From the IMG/VR virus record IMGVR_UViG_3300010354_000512, positions 1 to 27,039 of that record: a stretch of 27,039 nucleotides of DNA; one strand, 5' to 3'. The translations under genes were made by a program, and so were the position numbers. The notes beneath the pieces are model-generated. The model saw only the letters and a list, made by a program, of their open reading frames with translations. It did not search any database and was not told where the DNA came from. Every line of letters begins with the position of its first letter. The stretch's first letter is position 1. This DNA comes from a virus. This document shows positions 7,504-27,039 of this stretch, in pieces.

Positions 7504-8109
7504 ATGACATTCAACATTAATCAATTTAAAAATCAACTAACATTTGGTGGAGCTAGACCTTCGTTGTTTCAAGTACAACTAAGTCTTCCAGCCAACTTGT
7601 CGGATCCTGTAGATAATGGTATATCTGATGCTGCTGGACTTTCTGGAAGTACAGTTGAAAGAAAATTGGCTTTTATGTGTAGAGCTACCTCTATACCAGC
7701 CAGCACGATTGCAGCGATAGACGTACCATACTTTGGAAGAAAAACCAAGGTTGCAGGAAACAGAACCTTTGCTCCATGGTCTATAACAGTAATTAACGAT
7801 GAGGACTTTCTAGTTCGCAAATCGTTGGAAAACTGGATGGCTTCCATAAATGGACATGCAAGTAATTTAAAAAATTCTGGCATAACATCTCGCCCAGCCG
7901 ATTATCAATCAACAGCAACGGTTAGACAGTTTGGTAAAGGTCCAGAAGAAGTTGCAATCAGAGCATATAAGTTTGTGAATCTTTTTCCAACCGAAGTTTC
8001 AACTATTGAACTAGATTGGAATACCACAGACACAATCGAGGAGTTTACAGTAACATTTGAATATGATTACTGGGAAATTGAAAGCTCCTTGGATGTTGGT
8101 GTAGTATAG
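7504..8109 (+). CDS. 19: Tail tube protein gp19
   Basis: Inner tail tube through which DNA passes. The T4 gp19 family pattern is clear: FGGARPSLFQVQLSLP (about 15-30), CRATSIPAST, IDVPYFGRKTKVAGNRTF, WSITVINDEDFLVRKSLENWMASINGH and the C-terminal IELDWNTTDTIEEFTVTFEYDYWEI. Length 201 against 163 in T4, partly from a segment around residues 35-55 (SDPVDNGISDAAGLSGSTVE) absent from the paralogue at 8189. A strong AAGGAG ribosome site precedes the ATG, and a terminator hairpin follows at 8143-8167. Confidence 0.94.
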   Translation: MTFNINQFKNQLTFGGARPSLFQVQLSLPANLSDPVDNGISDAAGLSGSTVERKLAFMCRATSIPASTIAAIDVPYFGRKTKVAGNRTFAPWSITVINDEDFLVRKSLENWMASINGHASNLKNSGITSRPADYQSTATVRQFGKGPEEVAIRAYKFVNLFPTEVSTIELDWNTTDTIEEFTVTFEYDYWEIESSLDVGVV

Positions 8110-8188: not shown

Positions 8189-8740
8189 ATGCCATTTAAT
8201 ATAACAAATTTTAAAAGCAGATTCAATTTTGGTGGGGCAAGACCTTGTTTATTTCAAGTTCAACTTACTTTACCTGAAGGAGTTAATACGGAACAATTTC
8301 GTTCCACATTTGCTGAAAAATTTTCATTTACTTGCAAGTCAGCTTCTATTCCAGGAAGCTCAGTTTCAAACATAGAAATACCATTTCAAGGAAGAAAAGT
8401 ATATTGTGCGGGAAATAGAGTGTTTGAACCTTGGACTGTTACTGTATTAAATGATGAAGATTTTTTGGTTAGAAGGGCATTTGAATTCTGGTTGTCTTCT
8501 ATAAATGGACACTCAACAAATCAGCCCAGGTCTTTATCTTTTGGATCAGCTAGTCCAAAAAATTATCAAACAGATGCCATAGTAAAACAATTTTCTCAAC
8601 AATATACAGAAATTCCTATTGCAACATACACATTTAAAAATTTGTTCCCCACAGAAATTTCTCCGATGGAATTGGACTGGAATGAAACCGATACTGTGGA
8701 ACAATTTAATGTTACTTTTAGATATGATTACTGGACTTAA
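8189..8740 (+). CDS. Second gp19-family tail tube protein (paralogue)
   Basis: A 183-residue homologue of the preceding tube protein sharing FGGARPCLFQVQL, CKSASIPGSS, IPFQGRKVYCAGNRVF, LNDEDFLVRRAFEFWLSSINGH, NLFPTEISPMELDWNETDT and a C-terminal FRYDYWT. By eye about half the residues are identical, so the duplication is old and both copies are under constraint. Unlike gp19 it has no strong Shine-Dalgarno (GGTAAAAAAAC before the ATG) and lies behind a terminator with its own late promoter, which suggests a less abundant, specialised tube or baseplate-proximal component. Confidence 0.88.
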   Translation: MPFNITNFKSRFNFGGARPCLFQVQLTLPEGVNTEQFRSTFAEKFSFTCKSASIPGSSVSNIEIPFQGRKVYCAGNRVFEPWTVTVLNDEDFLVRRAFEFWLSSINGHSTNQPRSLSFGSASPKNYQTDAIVKQFSQQYTEIPIATYTFKNLFPTEISPMELDWNETDTVEQFNVTFRYDYWT

Positions 8741-16421: not shown

Positions 16422-16988
16422 ATGACTATAACAAATGTAGAAAATAGAAATTTTCAATCTCCTTTAAACTATGAGTTTAGAGTTGATAGATTGAAAGATT
16501 TTGATTTCTTTGTCCAAAAAGTAAACATCCCATCTCTTAGTCTCCCCACAGCGTCAAATGGTGGTTCAAATCCTTTTGTAAAAATTCCATATCCTGGAGA
16601 TCATTTGGAGTTCGGAGAATTATCCGTTGATTTTAAAGTAAGTGAGGGTCTTTATAATTGGTATGAAATATTTTCCTGGATGCAAGGGCTAGGATTTCCT
16701 GAGAGATTGCAGCAATATGTGGATCTTAAATCTGGTTCAACCAAAGATTTAAATGGAAAAATAATTCCACCAAAAATGCTAAGACAGCCTCATGGGAATT
16801 TATACGGTCAAGCATCATTAATTATTAACACAAGTCAAAACAATCCATCTGTAAAAATAAATTTTGTGGATATATATCCTGTAAATTTATCTGAAATATC
16901 TTTGGACACCAGAGATTCAGAGGTTTTGCATGTAACTTCTTCGGTTAGTTTCAAGTATGATTATTTTACAGTAGAAAAACTTTTATAA
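16422..16988 (+). CDS. gp19-like tail structural protein
   Basis: 188 residues of beta-rich sequence: NYEFRVDRLKDFDFFVQKVNIPSLSLP in two pieces, PYPGDHLEFGELSVDFKVSE, YNWYEIFSWMQGLGFPERLQ, and a C-terminal SSVSFKYDYFTVEKLL. The last block resembles the FEYDYWEIE end of the tube proteins here. The whole is like a conserved marine T4-like virion family often placed near tail tube or tail completion genes. T4-like phages of this kind may carry tail completion gene 3 in this slot, but I cannot confirm homology to T4 gp3. The late promoter supports a virion role. Confidence 0.65.
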   Translation: MTITNVENRNFQSPLNYEFRVDRLKDFDFFVQKVNIPSLSLPTASNGGSNPFVKIPYPGDHLEFGELSVDFKVSEGLYNWYEIFSWMQGLGFPERLQQYVDLKSGSTKDLNGKIIPPKMLRQPHGNLYGQASLIINTSQNNPSVKINFVDIYPVNLSEISLDTRDSEVLHVTSSVSFKYDYFTVEKLL

Positions 16989-18160: not shown

Positions 18161-18209
18161 CATTACTAAATATAACAGCATAGTATAATGTTTGTTATTA
18201 TTAGTAATG
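18161..18209 (+). promoter_or_regulatory. Start-codon hairpin with a -10 box in its loop (uvsW leader)
   Basis: CATTACTAA (18161-18169) is the exact reverse complement of TTAGTAATG (18201-18209), whose last three bases are the uvsW start codon. Inside, ATAACA (18172-18177) pairs with TGTTAT (18193-18198) after a 2x2 mismatch, making 15 bp in total. The loop (18178-18192) contains a consensus TATAAT (18184-18189). A transcript from that -10 would begin near 18196 and lack the left arm, while read-through from uvsY would hide the start codon. No good -35 is visible. Confidence 0.55.
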
Positions 18210-24126: not shown

Positions 24127-24792
24127 ATGTGTTTTCACAAGGATATGAAAATAATGACAAACGAACCGAAAATAAGAAATGCTATACTTGTAAACGAGTT
24201 TACCGAATTTGGCGTTAAATCTTTTAAAAGCGATTTTGATGAATTGAATTCGGGTCTTATGCCTATAATTCCAATTTTTATTGATAGTTTTGGTGGTGAA
24301 ATATACTCACTTTTGGCTATGTTGGATATTATATCCACTTCAACCAAACCAGTTGCAACAATAGCCTTGGGAAAAGCTATGAGTTGTGGTAGCATATTGC
24401 TGGCTTGTGGCACACCTAAATTTAGATTTGTTGGACCACATTCTACTGTAATGATACACGATGCAGCCACATTTTCTTTTGGTAAAATTGAAGATTTAAA
24501 GGCTGATGTTGGTGAAGCTGAAAGATTGAATCACAAAATATTTGACTTGCTAAATGAAAAGTGCAATAAACCAAAAGGACATTTTCAGTCAAAAGTTGCT
24601 GAGAAAAAGCACGTTAATTGGTACTTGGATTCCACAGAAGTAATAAAGAACGGTTTGGCGGATCATGTTGGAATTCCAGTGATAGATTCATTGTTTAATT
24701 TGGATATAGTTTCTTTACCAAATGCTAAGAATGTCAAGAAGTCAACAAAGTCCACTGCGAGTAAGACCAAGACTAAAACAAAAAAGAAGTAA
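24127..24792 (+). CDS. ClpP-type serine protease
   Basis: ClpP/crotonase-fold peptidase. Oxyanion strand DSFGGEI (53-59), nucleophile in GKAMSCGSILL (Ser86), His111 in STVMIHDAA, and a candidate Asp168 in NWYLDSTEVIKNGLADHVG. The Ser-His spacing of 25 residues equals that of ClpP, and the IxNGLxDxVG motif is typical. The C-terminal about 25 residues are a Lys/Thr/Ser tail (STKSTASKTKTKTKKK), possibly nucleic-acid binding or disordered. ATGs at 24127, 24145 and 24154 compete; AGGA (24115-24118) favours the first, AAGGA (24139-24143) the third. Phage ClpP relatives often act in head maturation, but gp21 fills that role here and this gene sits with replication genes. Confidence 0.85.
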   Translation: MCFHKDMKIMTNEPKIRNAILVNEFTEFGVKSFKSDFDELNSGLMPIIPIFIDSFGGEIYSLLAMLDIISTSTKPVATIALGKAMSCGSILLACGTPKFRFVGPHSTVMIHDAATFSFGKIEDLKADVGEAERLNHKIFDLLNEKCNKPKGHFQSKVAEKKHVNWYLDSTEVIKNGLADHVGIPVIDSLFNLDIVSLPNAKNVKKSTKSTASKTKTKTKKK

Positions 24793-24795
24793 GCT

Positions 24796-25539
24796 ATGCC
24801 AGAGCCGCAAATAAAAACCATTTTGATATCCCAAATAGATGCATCATATCATGAAGATAGTTGTTTTCATTATTTGGAGCTGATACAAAATAGTGATTTT
24901 CTTAGATCCACTCCAATTTATGTTAGCGAACATGGCTTAAAATTGTATGGAAATAGTCTATCGGTTTTTCATTCTCTAAAGAAGTTTGGCATTGACAAGT
25001 GCTTTGCTTTTATTGTTCCTGGAGATTATAATGAAAAGTTTGATATGTATCTTAATAACATACAGTCAAATGTAACTTTGTTGTATCATAAGATTAAGAA
25101 ATTATATTCAGAAGCAATAAATTTAACAAATTGTGAGTTCGATATAAATCAACTGGATTTAATGTATTTGGTTGAGTTGGATGATGAGTCCATGGATGTA
25201 AGAGAGTTGGCTGAAGAAACCGTAAAGATAAAAAAACAATTCAACGTAACAATAGTTTTAAAAACTCTTGAACACAATTTTCTTATCCAAAAGTTTTTTA
25301 AGACAAATAAAAATGAAATAACATTCAATGATTTTAATCGAGTTGTTAATAAGATAGTTGGTCCATTTGATGATGAGCCAGAAGAAAGATTTTATAGAAA
25401 CAATACTTATCCAGATTTTATTATAAAGTGTGATACCTATGAACAATTAAATGCAGTCTTGGACTTTTTTAAGATAAACAAAGATAAAGTAAAAACCACC
25501 AGATTGAATTTTAAGAAAATCGAAAAGTGCATCGTATGA
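24796..25539 (+). CDS. Hypothetical protein, faint ParB-like N-terminus
   Basis: 247 residues. The N-terminal stretch TILISQIDASYHED, TPIYVSEHGLKLYGNSLSVF and HSLKKFGIDKCFAFIV follows the spacing of ParB/sulfiredoxin folds ('pI.V..dG..l.G..r..a...lG...v...v'). The key GxxR residues are replaced (YGNSL), so an enzymatic or CTP-binding role is doubtful. The C-terminal half is unrecognised. Its stop overlaps the next ATG by 4 bp (ATGA), so the two are co-translated. The resemblance is weak inference. Confidence 0.6.
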   Translation: MPEPQIKTILISQIDASYHEDSCFHYLELIQNSDFLRSTPIYVSEHGLKLYGNSLSVFHSLKKFGIDKCFAFIVPGDYNEKFDMYLNNIQSNVTLLYHKIKKLYSEAINLTNCEFDINQLDLMYLVELDDESMDVRELAEETVKIKKQFNVTIVLKTLEHNFLIQKFFKTNKNEITFNDFNRVVNKIVGPFDDEPEERFYRNNTYPDFIIKCDTYEQLNAVLDFFKINKDKVKTTRLNFKKIEKCIV

Positions 25540-26486
25540 AAAGAATTTTGTTTATAGGTCCATACAGTCATCATTTAAGTTCACGAAACTTGCTGGCTTG
25601 TTATAGAATTGTAAGATGGTTTTGTGCGAATGTTCCAGGGTGTGAATTAATTCAATATGAAGATTATGTTAAAGCGGATTGCCACAAAAATGTTGATGCT
25701 ATTATATACTTTTATTCTTCGTTTTATGCCAAGTATGATGAGATTATTACTTTTATGAAGAAACATCCTCATGCCAAAACCTATTGGTTATATAATGAAT
25801 ATACGCTTGCCCTAAACAGTTCTGTGGCAAAATATTTTTATTCCAGAGGATACGAAGTTATAACAAATTTGGTGGATGGACACGGAACGGATGTTGTTAA
25901 TACAGCTAAAAAGCTCCACATTTTAAATATGAATGTTACAGCATTTAGAGATGAGATAGTTAAAAGACCTTTTGGTGATAGAACAATAGATTTGATGTAT
26001 TATGGTTCTTATCGCCCAGACCGACAAGAGTACATGAATGAATACTATCAAAATTCCATAGTTAGCACCAGCCCTAAAAATATTGGAAGATTTAAAGCAA
26101 ATGGACTTTCGGCAAAATTTGTAGATAAACTTGTGTGGGGAAGAAATGATTCTACTTTAAATAGAGTTAAATTTTCTGTTTATATAGAGGACAAGAGTAT
26201 GCATTTGGATAAGTTTAGTAATTTATCCGACAGATTTTATGAGTGTGTTAGTAATGGTGTGGTTTTGTTTTTTGACATTAATTGTAAAAAGAACGTGAAG
26301 GCTTCCGGATATAATATTGAGGAATATTTTTTTGTTAAGAATAATGCCGAGCTAAAAGCTAAAATGAAAGAAATAGAAATGGATTTATCCATACGAGATA
26401 GATATTTTTCCAATGTTATCGAAGGTATAGAAATGGAAAAACAAAATCTCCGCACAGAGTTCTCCAATGTATTTAAAAATGTCTAA
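25536..26486 (+). CDS. Putative GT-B glycosyltransferase-like protein
   Basis: The ATG at 25536 overlaps the preceding TGA (ATGA) and gives 316 residues; a GTG 9 bp upstream is less likely. Begins MKRILFIGPYSHHLSSRNLL, a Rossmann-type start. The C-terminal half has RTIDLMYYGSYRPDRQEYMN, STSPKNIGRFKANG, FSVYIEDKSMHLDKFSNLSD and RFYECVSNGVVLFFD, the layout of a nucleotide-sugar-binding C-lobe in which an acidic residue near RFYE holds the ribose. T4-like phages use glycosyltransferases on modified DNA or virions, but the substrate here cannot be read. The class call is pattern-based. Confidence 0.45.
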   Translation: MKRILFIGPYSHHLSSRNLLACYRIVRWFCANVPGCELIQYEDYVKADCHKNVDAIIYFYSSFYAKYDEIITFMKKHPHAKTYWLYNEYTLALNSSVAKYFYSRGYEVITNLVDGHGTDVVNTAKKLHILNMNVTAFRDEIVKRPFGDRTIDLMYYGSYRPDRQEYMNEYYQNSIVSTSPKNIGRFKANGLSAKFVDKLVWGRNDSTLNRVKFSVYIEDKSMHLDKFSNLSDRFYECVSNGVVLFFDINCKKNVKASGYNIEEYFFVKNNAELKAKMKEIEMDLSIRDRYFSNVIEGIEMEKQNLRTEFSNVFKNV

Positions 26487-26521
26487 TGAATACAGCACGT
26501 TATCTATACTAAAAAATGCGC

Positions 26522-26550
26522 TTGCAATATAAGGTTAGGTGTGCTAATTT
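26522..26550 (+). promoter_or_regulatory. Early-type promoter upstream of the HEVGH gene
   Basis: TTGCAA (26522-26527), 17-bp spacer, then TGTGC before TAATTT (26545-26550). The -10 itself matches poorly, but the GTGTGCTA context is shared with the uvsY promoter at 17656-17685. Transcription would start near 26557. Confidence 0.5.
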
Positions 26551-26551
26551 A

Positions 26552-26579
26552 ATCTCATCGATATTAAAAAAGGTGAGAT
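26552..26579 (+). promoter_or_regulatory. Ribosome-site hairpin directly before the HEVGH gene
   Basis: ATCTCATC (26552-26559) pairs with GGTGAGAT (26572-26579), 8 bp including one G-T pair, with a 12-base loop. The right arm is the Shine-Dalgarno (AAGGTGAG) and ends at the base before the ATG, so the ribosome site would be closed. A transcript starting near 26557 would lack most of the left arm and stay open. Confidence 0.5.
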
Positions 26580-27039
26580 ATGACAGATTCAAAAATAACT
26601 TCCAAAGAGATACTAGCCAAGTTAATGGCTACCGAAAATATTATAGTAGAACATGCCAATGTTCCTACTGCGGCATTTGACCTTAAAAATAGAAAGTTAC
26701 TTCTTCCCATTTGGAAGGATATTTCGGATGATGTATATACTTTACTAATCTCTCACGAAGTTGGACATGCACTATATACTCCTCATTCCGAATGGCAAGA
26801 AACGGTTAAAGATGAAACTGGATCCGACCTAAAACATATAATCAACGTGATTGAGGACGTTAGAATTGAGAAGCTCATTCAAAGTAAATTTCCTGGGACT
26901 GTAAAGTCCTTCAGAGTTGGTTACAACGAGCTTGAGCAGAAAAATATCTTTGGAACCAAAGATAGAGATATTCAGTCCTACGGATTTTTGGATAGAATTA
27001 ATATCCAATTTAAGATTGGTCATTTTGGATATGCCAAAG
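26580..27039 (+). CDS. HEVGH zinc metallopeptidase, N-terminal part
   Basis: 153 codons are visible and the gene runs off the window. LLISHEVGHALYTP gives the zinc motif H59-E60-x-x-H63, and HIINVIEDVRIEKLIQSKFPG downstream supplies a likely third ligand (Glu of IED) in the position used by gluzincin-type enzymes. The following VGYNELEQKNIFGTKDRD and FLDRINIQFKIGHFG match a T4-like marine phage protein annotated as peptidase, which in its full form carries a C-terminal von Willebrand A domain. That part would lie outside the window. Strong AAGGTGAG ribosome site, predicted to be masked by a hairpin. Confidence 0.8.
   Translation, partial: MTDSKITSKEILAKLMATENIIVEHANVPTAAFDLKNRKLLLPIWKDISDDVYTLLISHEVGHALYTPHSEWQETVKDETGSDLKHIINVIEDVRIEKLIQSKFPGTVKSFRVGYNELEQKNIFGTKDRDIQSYGFLDRINIQFKIGHFGYAK

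Follow-up and report, generated by a model that had tools for sequence, protein, structure and literature searches.

The start site of a phage peptidase gene, phrog_459, is predicted to pair with the gene's own promoter region more strongly than with promoter regions from other loci in a set of T4-like phages; the strong cases are limited to a subset of relatives and most leaders are not strongly masked. The window, by which we mean the whole 27,039-base stretch of viral DNA in IMG/VR record IMGVR_UViG_3300010354_000512, comes from a T4-like phage and carries a hairpin at this start site that, taken alone, is marginal and barely above chance. uvsW, which lies upstream in the same window, is a far better example of a masked start than the peptidase.

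Packaging, tail and head genes in the window are followed by uvsY, uvsW, gene 55, 47, 46, a ClpP-like protease, two ORFs that match no family, and the beginning of the peptidase gene (Table 1). The order 55-47-46-peptidase is also found in S-SSM4. The run from gene 55 through the two orphan ORFs could be a source of read-through into the peptidase gene; the upstream ORFs are co-directional with it, and terminator scans found no + strand terminator between them and the peptidase. The hairpin lies in the 93-base gap that separates the second orphan ORF from the peptidase ATG. The stretch between gp46 and the peptidase, 24127-26486, holds the ClpP-like protease and both orphan ORFs, which match neither phrogs nor Pfam, and a Pfam search with the full-length peptidase of locus L002 gave no match worth naming (best E 0.1, under the family cut-off). 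In HTVC008M and P-HM1 (L348, L349), cobS lies directly 3' of the peptidase, which suggests that the two genes may be a functional pair. Three tail-tube (phrog_45) genes are also present in the window, at 7504-8109, 8189-8740 and 16422-16988, with an HNH endonuclease preceding the third.

Table 1. Features of the window bearing on the peptidase and uvsW start sites
Feature	Position	Strand	Basis or remark
uvsW masked start: CATTACTAA (18161-18169) paired with TTAGTAATG (18201-18209); TAAATA at 18167-18172	18161-18209	+	Opening energy and swap test
Co-directional ORF upstream of peptidase, no family match	25527-26486	+	Last of the run 55-47-46-ClpP plus two orphan ORFs
Candidate -35, TTGCAA, 4/6	26522-26527	+	Not above chance
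Candidate -10, TAATTT, 3/6; TG at 26542-26543	26545-26550	+	Not above chance
Hairpin left arm, ATCTCATC	26552-26559	+	Pairing and folding
Implied transcription start	26557	+	Predicted from promoter spacing only
Hairpin loop, 12 nt	26560-26571	+	Folding
Hairpin right arm, GGTGAGAT	26572-26579	+	Contains most of the SD-like AGGTGAG (26571-26577); adjoins ATG 26580
phrog_459 "peptidase" gene, HEVGH motif	26580-27039	+	Truncated by window end

A first-pass annotation had proposed that bases 26552-26559 pair with the Shine-Dalgarno (SD) sequence up to the ATG, and both the coordinates and the pairing are exact. The two arms form eight base pairs, including one G-U, at -8.1 kcal/mol. Opening the region from the SD to the ATG costs 7.4 kcal/mol in a read-through RNA versus 2.2 kcal/mol in an RNA begun at 26557; the latter retains three of the eight bases of the left arm, and its folding energy is -0.5 kcal/mol. 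A helix over the SD and AUG of the long transcript is therefore predicted, marginally so relative to shuffles: the cost of 7.4 kcal/mol is equalled by 32 of 500 shuffles of the upstream sequence and by 9 of 52 promoter regions swapped in from relatives, and with slightly different flanks the opening energy is 8.1 (p 0.05). The stem score is matched by 3.3% of shuffles of the same leader (n=300), and p<0.05 was reached in 2 of the 30 leaders tested in this way. The 121-nt hairpin region shows no extra folding relative to shuffles (z -0.39). Conservation of the window's own hairpin was sought by a pattern scan of viral contigs, which returned four stretches; all four, with their flanks, read as unrelated coding DNA and give no support.

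The early-type promoter that the annotation had placed within the left side of this hairpin fares less well. TTGCAA and TAATTT, separated by 17 nt and with a TG ahead of the -10, give 7/12 consensus matches, and the pair is absent from the sigma-70 scan output for the window. Scored with a matrix built from 52 relatives, it is the best site in the window leader, at -2.1 versus at least 10.3 for the matrix members, and 729 of 2000 shuffles equal its score, so that the proposed promoter does not rise above chance. It lies 29 nt from the ATG, compared with 30-36 nt in the four nearest dereplicated relatives. Nor is there a T4-late promoter at the peptidase, no TAAATA being present within 8-70 nt upstream of its ATG. 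The hairpin would be unable to form in RNA from 26557, but the promoter for such a start scores at chance level.

Relatives provide the stronger evidence. A first scan gave 80 viral loci, the best 71% identical, and a wider set from three queries pooled 241 loci, yielding 231 usable leaders, 96 representatives and 52 tested leaders (the 44 representatives left out comprise 40 with weaker promoters and 4 with promoters too near the ATG). A sigma-70-type promoter with at least 10/12 matches occurs in 31 of 42 dereplicated peptidase leaders versus about 6% of shuffles, mostly ending 20-36 nt upstream of the ATG, and many leaders show complementarity between this promoter region and the start site. 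In our swap test, the start-site opening energy is summed over leaders carrying their own promoter regions and compared with sums in which the regions come from other loci (derangements). For 24 relatives plus the window, the sum is 192.4 versus 144.4 (sd 9.0), with none of 7461 derangements as high; for the 52 leaders, it is 350.2 versus 287.1 (sd 12.7), with 0/5000 as high. The masking excess is located at -14..+3, where z is 5.3, against values from -2.8 to +1.7 in seven windows farther along; in the 52 leaders it is robust to moving the transcription start 3 nt either way, with z 0.17 in a control window at +5..+22. The idea that the peptidase start is closed in read-through RNA and open in the local transcript is supported across the relatives, by both the 52-leader sum and the confinement of the excess to SD/ATG; for the window alone it is marginal and lacks a promoter above chance.

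Masking recurs at orthologous peptidase genes in a subset of relatives. It amounts to at least 5 kcal/mol in 10 of the 52 promoter-led dereplicated leaders and to less than 5 kcal/mol in the other 42, and individual p values are below 0.05 in 8 leaders (2.6 expected) and above 0.95 in 3, with a mean of 0.41. L006, among the nearest relatives of the window, shows no masking (p 0.70). Arm sequences are unrelated between the strongly masked loci: in L089/L088 the left arm of a perfect repeat of 14 bp extends over the -35 hexamer, the spacer and -10 pair with the SD in L097/L099, and the L159 leader folds at -27 kcal/mol. Compared with shuffles, 3 of 12 named-phage leaders are masked, those of S-SSM4 (1/100), DSL-LC02 (0/100, with a weak promoter) and P-HM1 (4/100), and the remaining 9 are not masked at 5%. 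Alignment A1 (9 leaders, 7 distinct), the one alignable subclade, has 88.8% of its cells paired versus 34-51% when slid by 1-3 columns, and compensatory change within it is not above shuffles (1 pair; 238/500 as high). In a second alignment, A2, L102 appears by eye to differ from L097 in both arms with pairing retained; this case was not counted, the outer helix being shifted by one base. In 10/10 strongly masked leaders the closest long ORF upstream runs in the same direction as the peptidase; because this also holds for 38/42 weakly masked leaders, orientation does not discriminate between them. Terminator-like stems occur in 0/10 strongly masked and 4/42 other leaders (p 0.58). In the named cyanophages L349, L352, L353, L355 and L356, an apparent intrinsic terminator, read by eye, lies just ahead of the peptidase promoter, possibly another way to stop read-through.

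The likeness of the peptidase start to uvsW, which the annotation had also drawn, is borne out on the uvsW side. There, a T4-late-type promoter is present in the window as TAAATA, and this motif lies inside the start-masking hairpin both in the window and in eight of nine close relatives (L267-L275), with unrelated arms. None of 200 shuffles matches the masking of the window uvsW, and among the nine relatives, which are 66-78% identical, at most 5 of 200 do so in eight, the count for L275 being 37/200. When promoter regions are swapped among the window and its nine relatives, the sum is 143.7 for the native combinations versus 80.6 (sd 5.2), with 0/5000 derangements as high. The uvsW collection comprises 75 leaders (29 distinct); among the 22 that were listed and read by eye, the distant ones include no clear case of masking, and T4 uvsW has no such structure by eye.

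We tentatively read the peptidase leader of the window as a masked start with its own promoter inside the left arm, a view that we hold to be somewhat less likely than not. RNA reading through from the 55-47-46-ClpP run would contain both arms and fold, hiding the peptidase SD and allowing poor translation, whereas RNA from the peptidase's own promoter would begin within the left arm, fail to fold and be translated. The likely role of such an arrangement would be to tie peptidase synthesis to its own promoter rather than to the upstream operon. The calculations show the arms, where they lie, how far the two RNAs differ in energy, and that masking recurs at this gene in some of the relatives with strong promoters. 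A working promoter at the weak TTGCAA/TAATTT pair, the occurrence of read-through and an effect on translation are inferred. Nearly as likely for the window is a chance hairpin, in which the purine-rich SD of an AT-rich leader pairs accidentally with a pyrimidine stretch, the phage making no regulatory use of the pairing. The counts given above, with p<0.05 in 2 of 30 leaders and equal masking by 32/500 shuffles and 9/52 foreign promoter regions, agree with accidental pairing, as does a promoter at chance level; significant masking of the same gene across relatives with unrelated sequences does not, and because of it the prior for the window leader is raised.

Every transcript might instead begin 5' of position 26552, at a promoter such as TATACT (26505-26510) or one belonging to the operon, so that the hairpin always lowers peptidase initiation. 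We consider such constitutive damping unlikely: no credible promoter was found within 26522-26557 and TATACT is present, though without a good -35, but the promoters of the relatives lie mostly 20-36 nt upstream of the ATG and would produce transcripts from which the left arm is largely or wholly missing. It is very improbable that the arms are instead half-sites for a DNA-binding protein that overlap the promoter. The left arm does overlap the promoter region, and the repeat in L089/L088 is a perfect 14 bp; against an operator of this kind, arm sequence, length and spacing vary between loci, the excess is restricted to SD/ATG, and G-U pairs are present in L106. Extending the masked-start reading beyond the window, we regard it as possible, if somewhat short of probable, that cyanophage-type T4-like phages have repeatedly shielded the peptidase after the gp46 region from operon read-through, using hairpins that mask its start and are made of its own host-type promoter sequence, with arms rebuilt lineage by lineage, and that uvsW in the relatives of the window is insulated likewise with a late promoter. 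What selection maintains would in that case be the arrangement rather than any particular sequence.

The masking logic itself is already known, from T4 e, soc, 49 and I-TevI and from B. subtilis sigG. The transposases of IS10 and IS50 are likewise protected from outside transcription, the outside RNA folding over the ribosome-binding site (RBS); they share with the peptidase relatives a host-type promoter and an RBS covered in outside RNA, and differ in lying at the end of a mobile element. T4 gene e, a demonstrated case, scores 0/200 shuffles in our masking test. Two reports on T4 describe starts of e, soc, 49 and I-TevI that are masked in long early RNA, late promoters within the 5' part that open the start of e and I-TevI, a 100-fold cut in the synthesis of e by the structure, and RBS hairpins on early or middle read-through RNA with a late promoter in the 5' arm also for segB and Aeh1 mobE (PMC3014915, PMC2988022). 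These late genes resemble the peptidase leader in having an SD/AUG hairpin in the long RNA and a local promoter that drops the 5' arm; the promoter in T4 is the late TATAAATA, whereas the peptidase relatives use the host-type TTGACA/TATAAT and the window's own version is degenerate. For B. subtilis sigG, a large hairpin is proposed to block the spoIIG read-through RNA and is unable to form in PsigG RNA (PMC5942855). The logic is the same: the promoter is of the bacterial sigma-factor type and follows an operon read in the same direction. But sigG is a sporulation gene with a hairpin of 20+ bp, whereas the window has 8 bp at a gene of a phage. Searches of the open-licence literature found no masked start that uses a host-type promoter in a T4-like phage, and none at the peptidase gene. 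If our reading is true, T4-like phages have reused, at particular core genes and with host-type promoters as well, a design so far described for a few late genes of T4 and for sigG, and it would be visible only by testing a promoter region against its own start site for complementarity, because the arms have no shared sequence. The promoter-swap test makes it possible to search for masked starts, and bench tests could use the leaders of, for example, S-SSM4 or L089.

Two cases in one window had been taken as a sign that masking is a general way for this phage to decouple long transcripts from translation. This broader claim fails, because promoter-led starts as a class are unmasked among the 362 gene starts taken from three related contigs, which total 332 kb in pieces. 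For the 30 starts led by host-type promoters the mean p is 0.54, with 3 below 0.05: the peptidase gene twice (G011, G002) and a calcineurin-like phosphoesterase. For the 39 that have TAAATA at 20-60 nt before the start the mean p is 0.49; 4 fall below 0.05, including uvsW (assigned by protein start). Among promoter-less starts, 150 were sampled out of 296 and 4 fall below 0.05 (7.5 expected), 36 intermediate starts being excluded. The annotation had suggested a genome-wide scan, with a frequency no higher than in shuffled leaders counting against its proposal; the tests on these contigs gave that outcome for the general claim and not for the gene-specific one. Masking is gene-specific, at the peptidase and very strongly at uvsW, and is no general device for promoter-led starts. 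The phosphoesterase (L184:12856-13773, - strand) has a host-type promoter and a start masked by GCCTTTCT/AGAAAGGC. In L177 (G002:C1:1-20000), a 131-aa gene starting at about 4329, which is probably gene 25, has TAAATA together with a start-masking hairpin within a fold of -24 kcal/mol.
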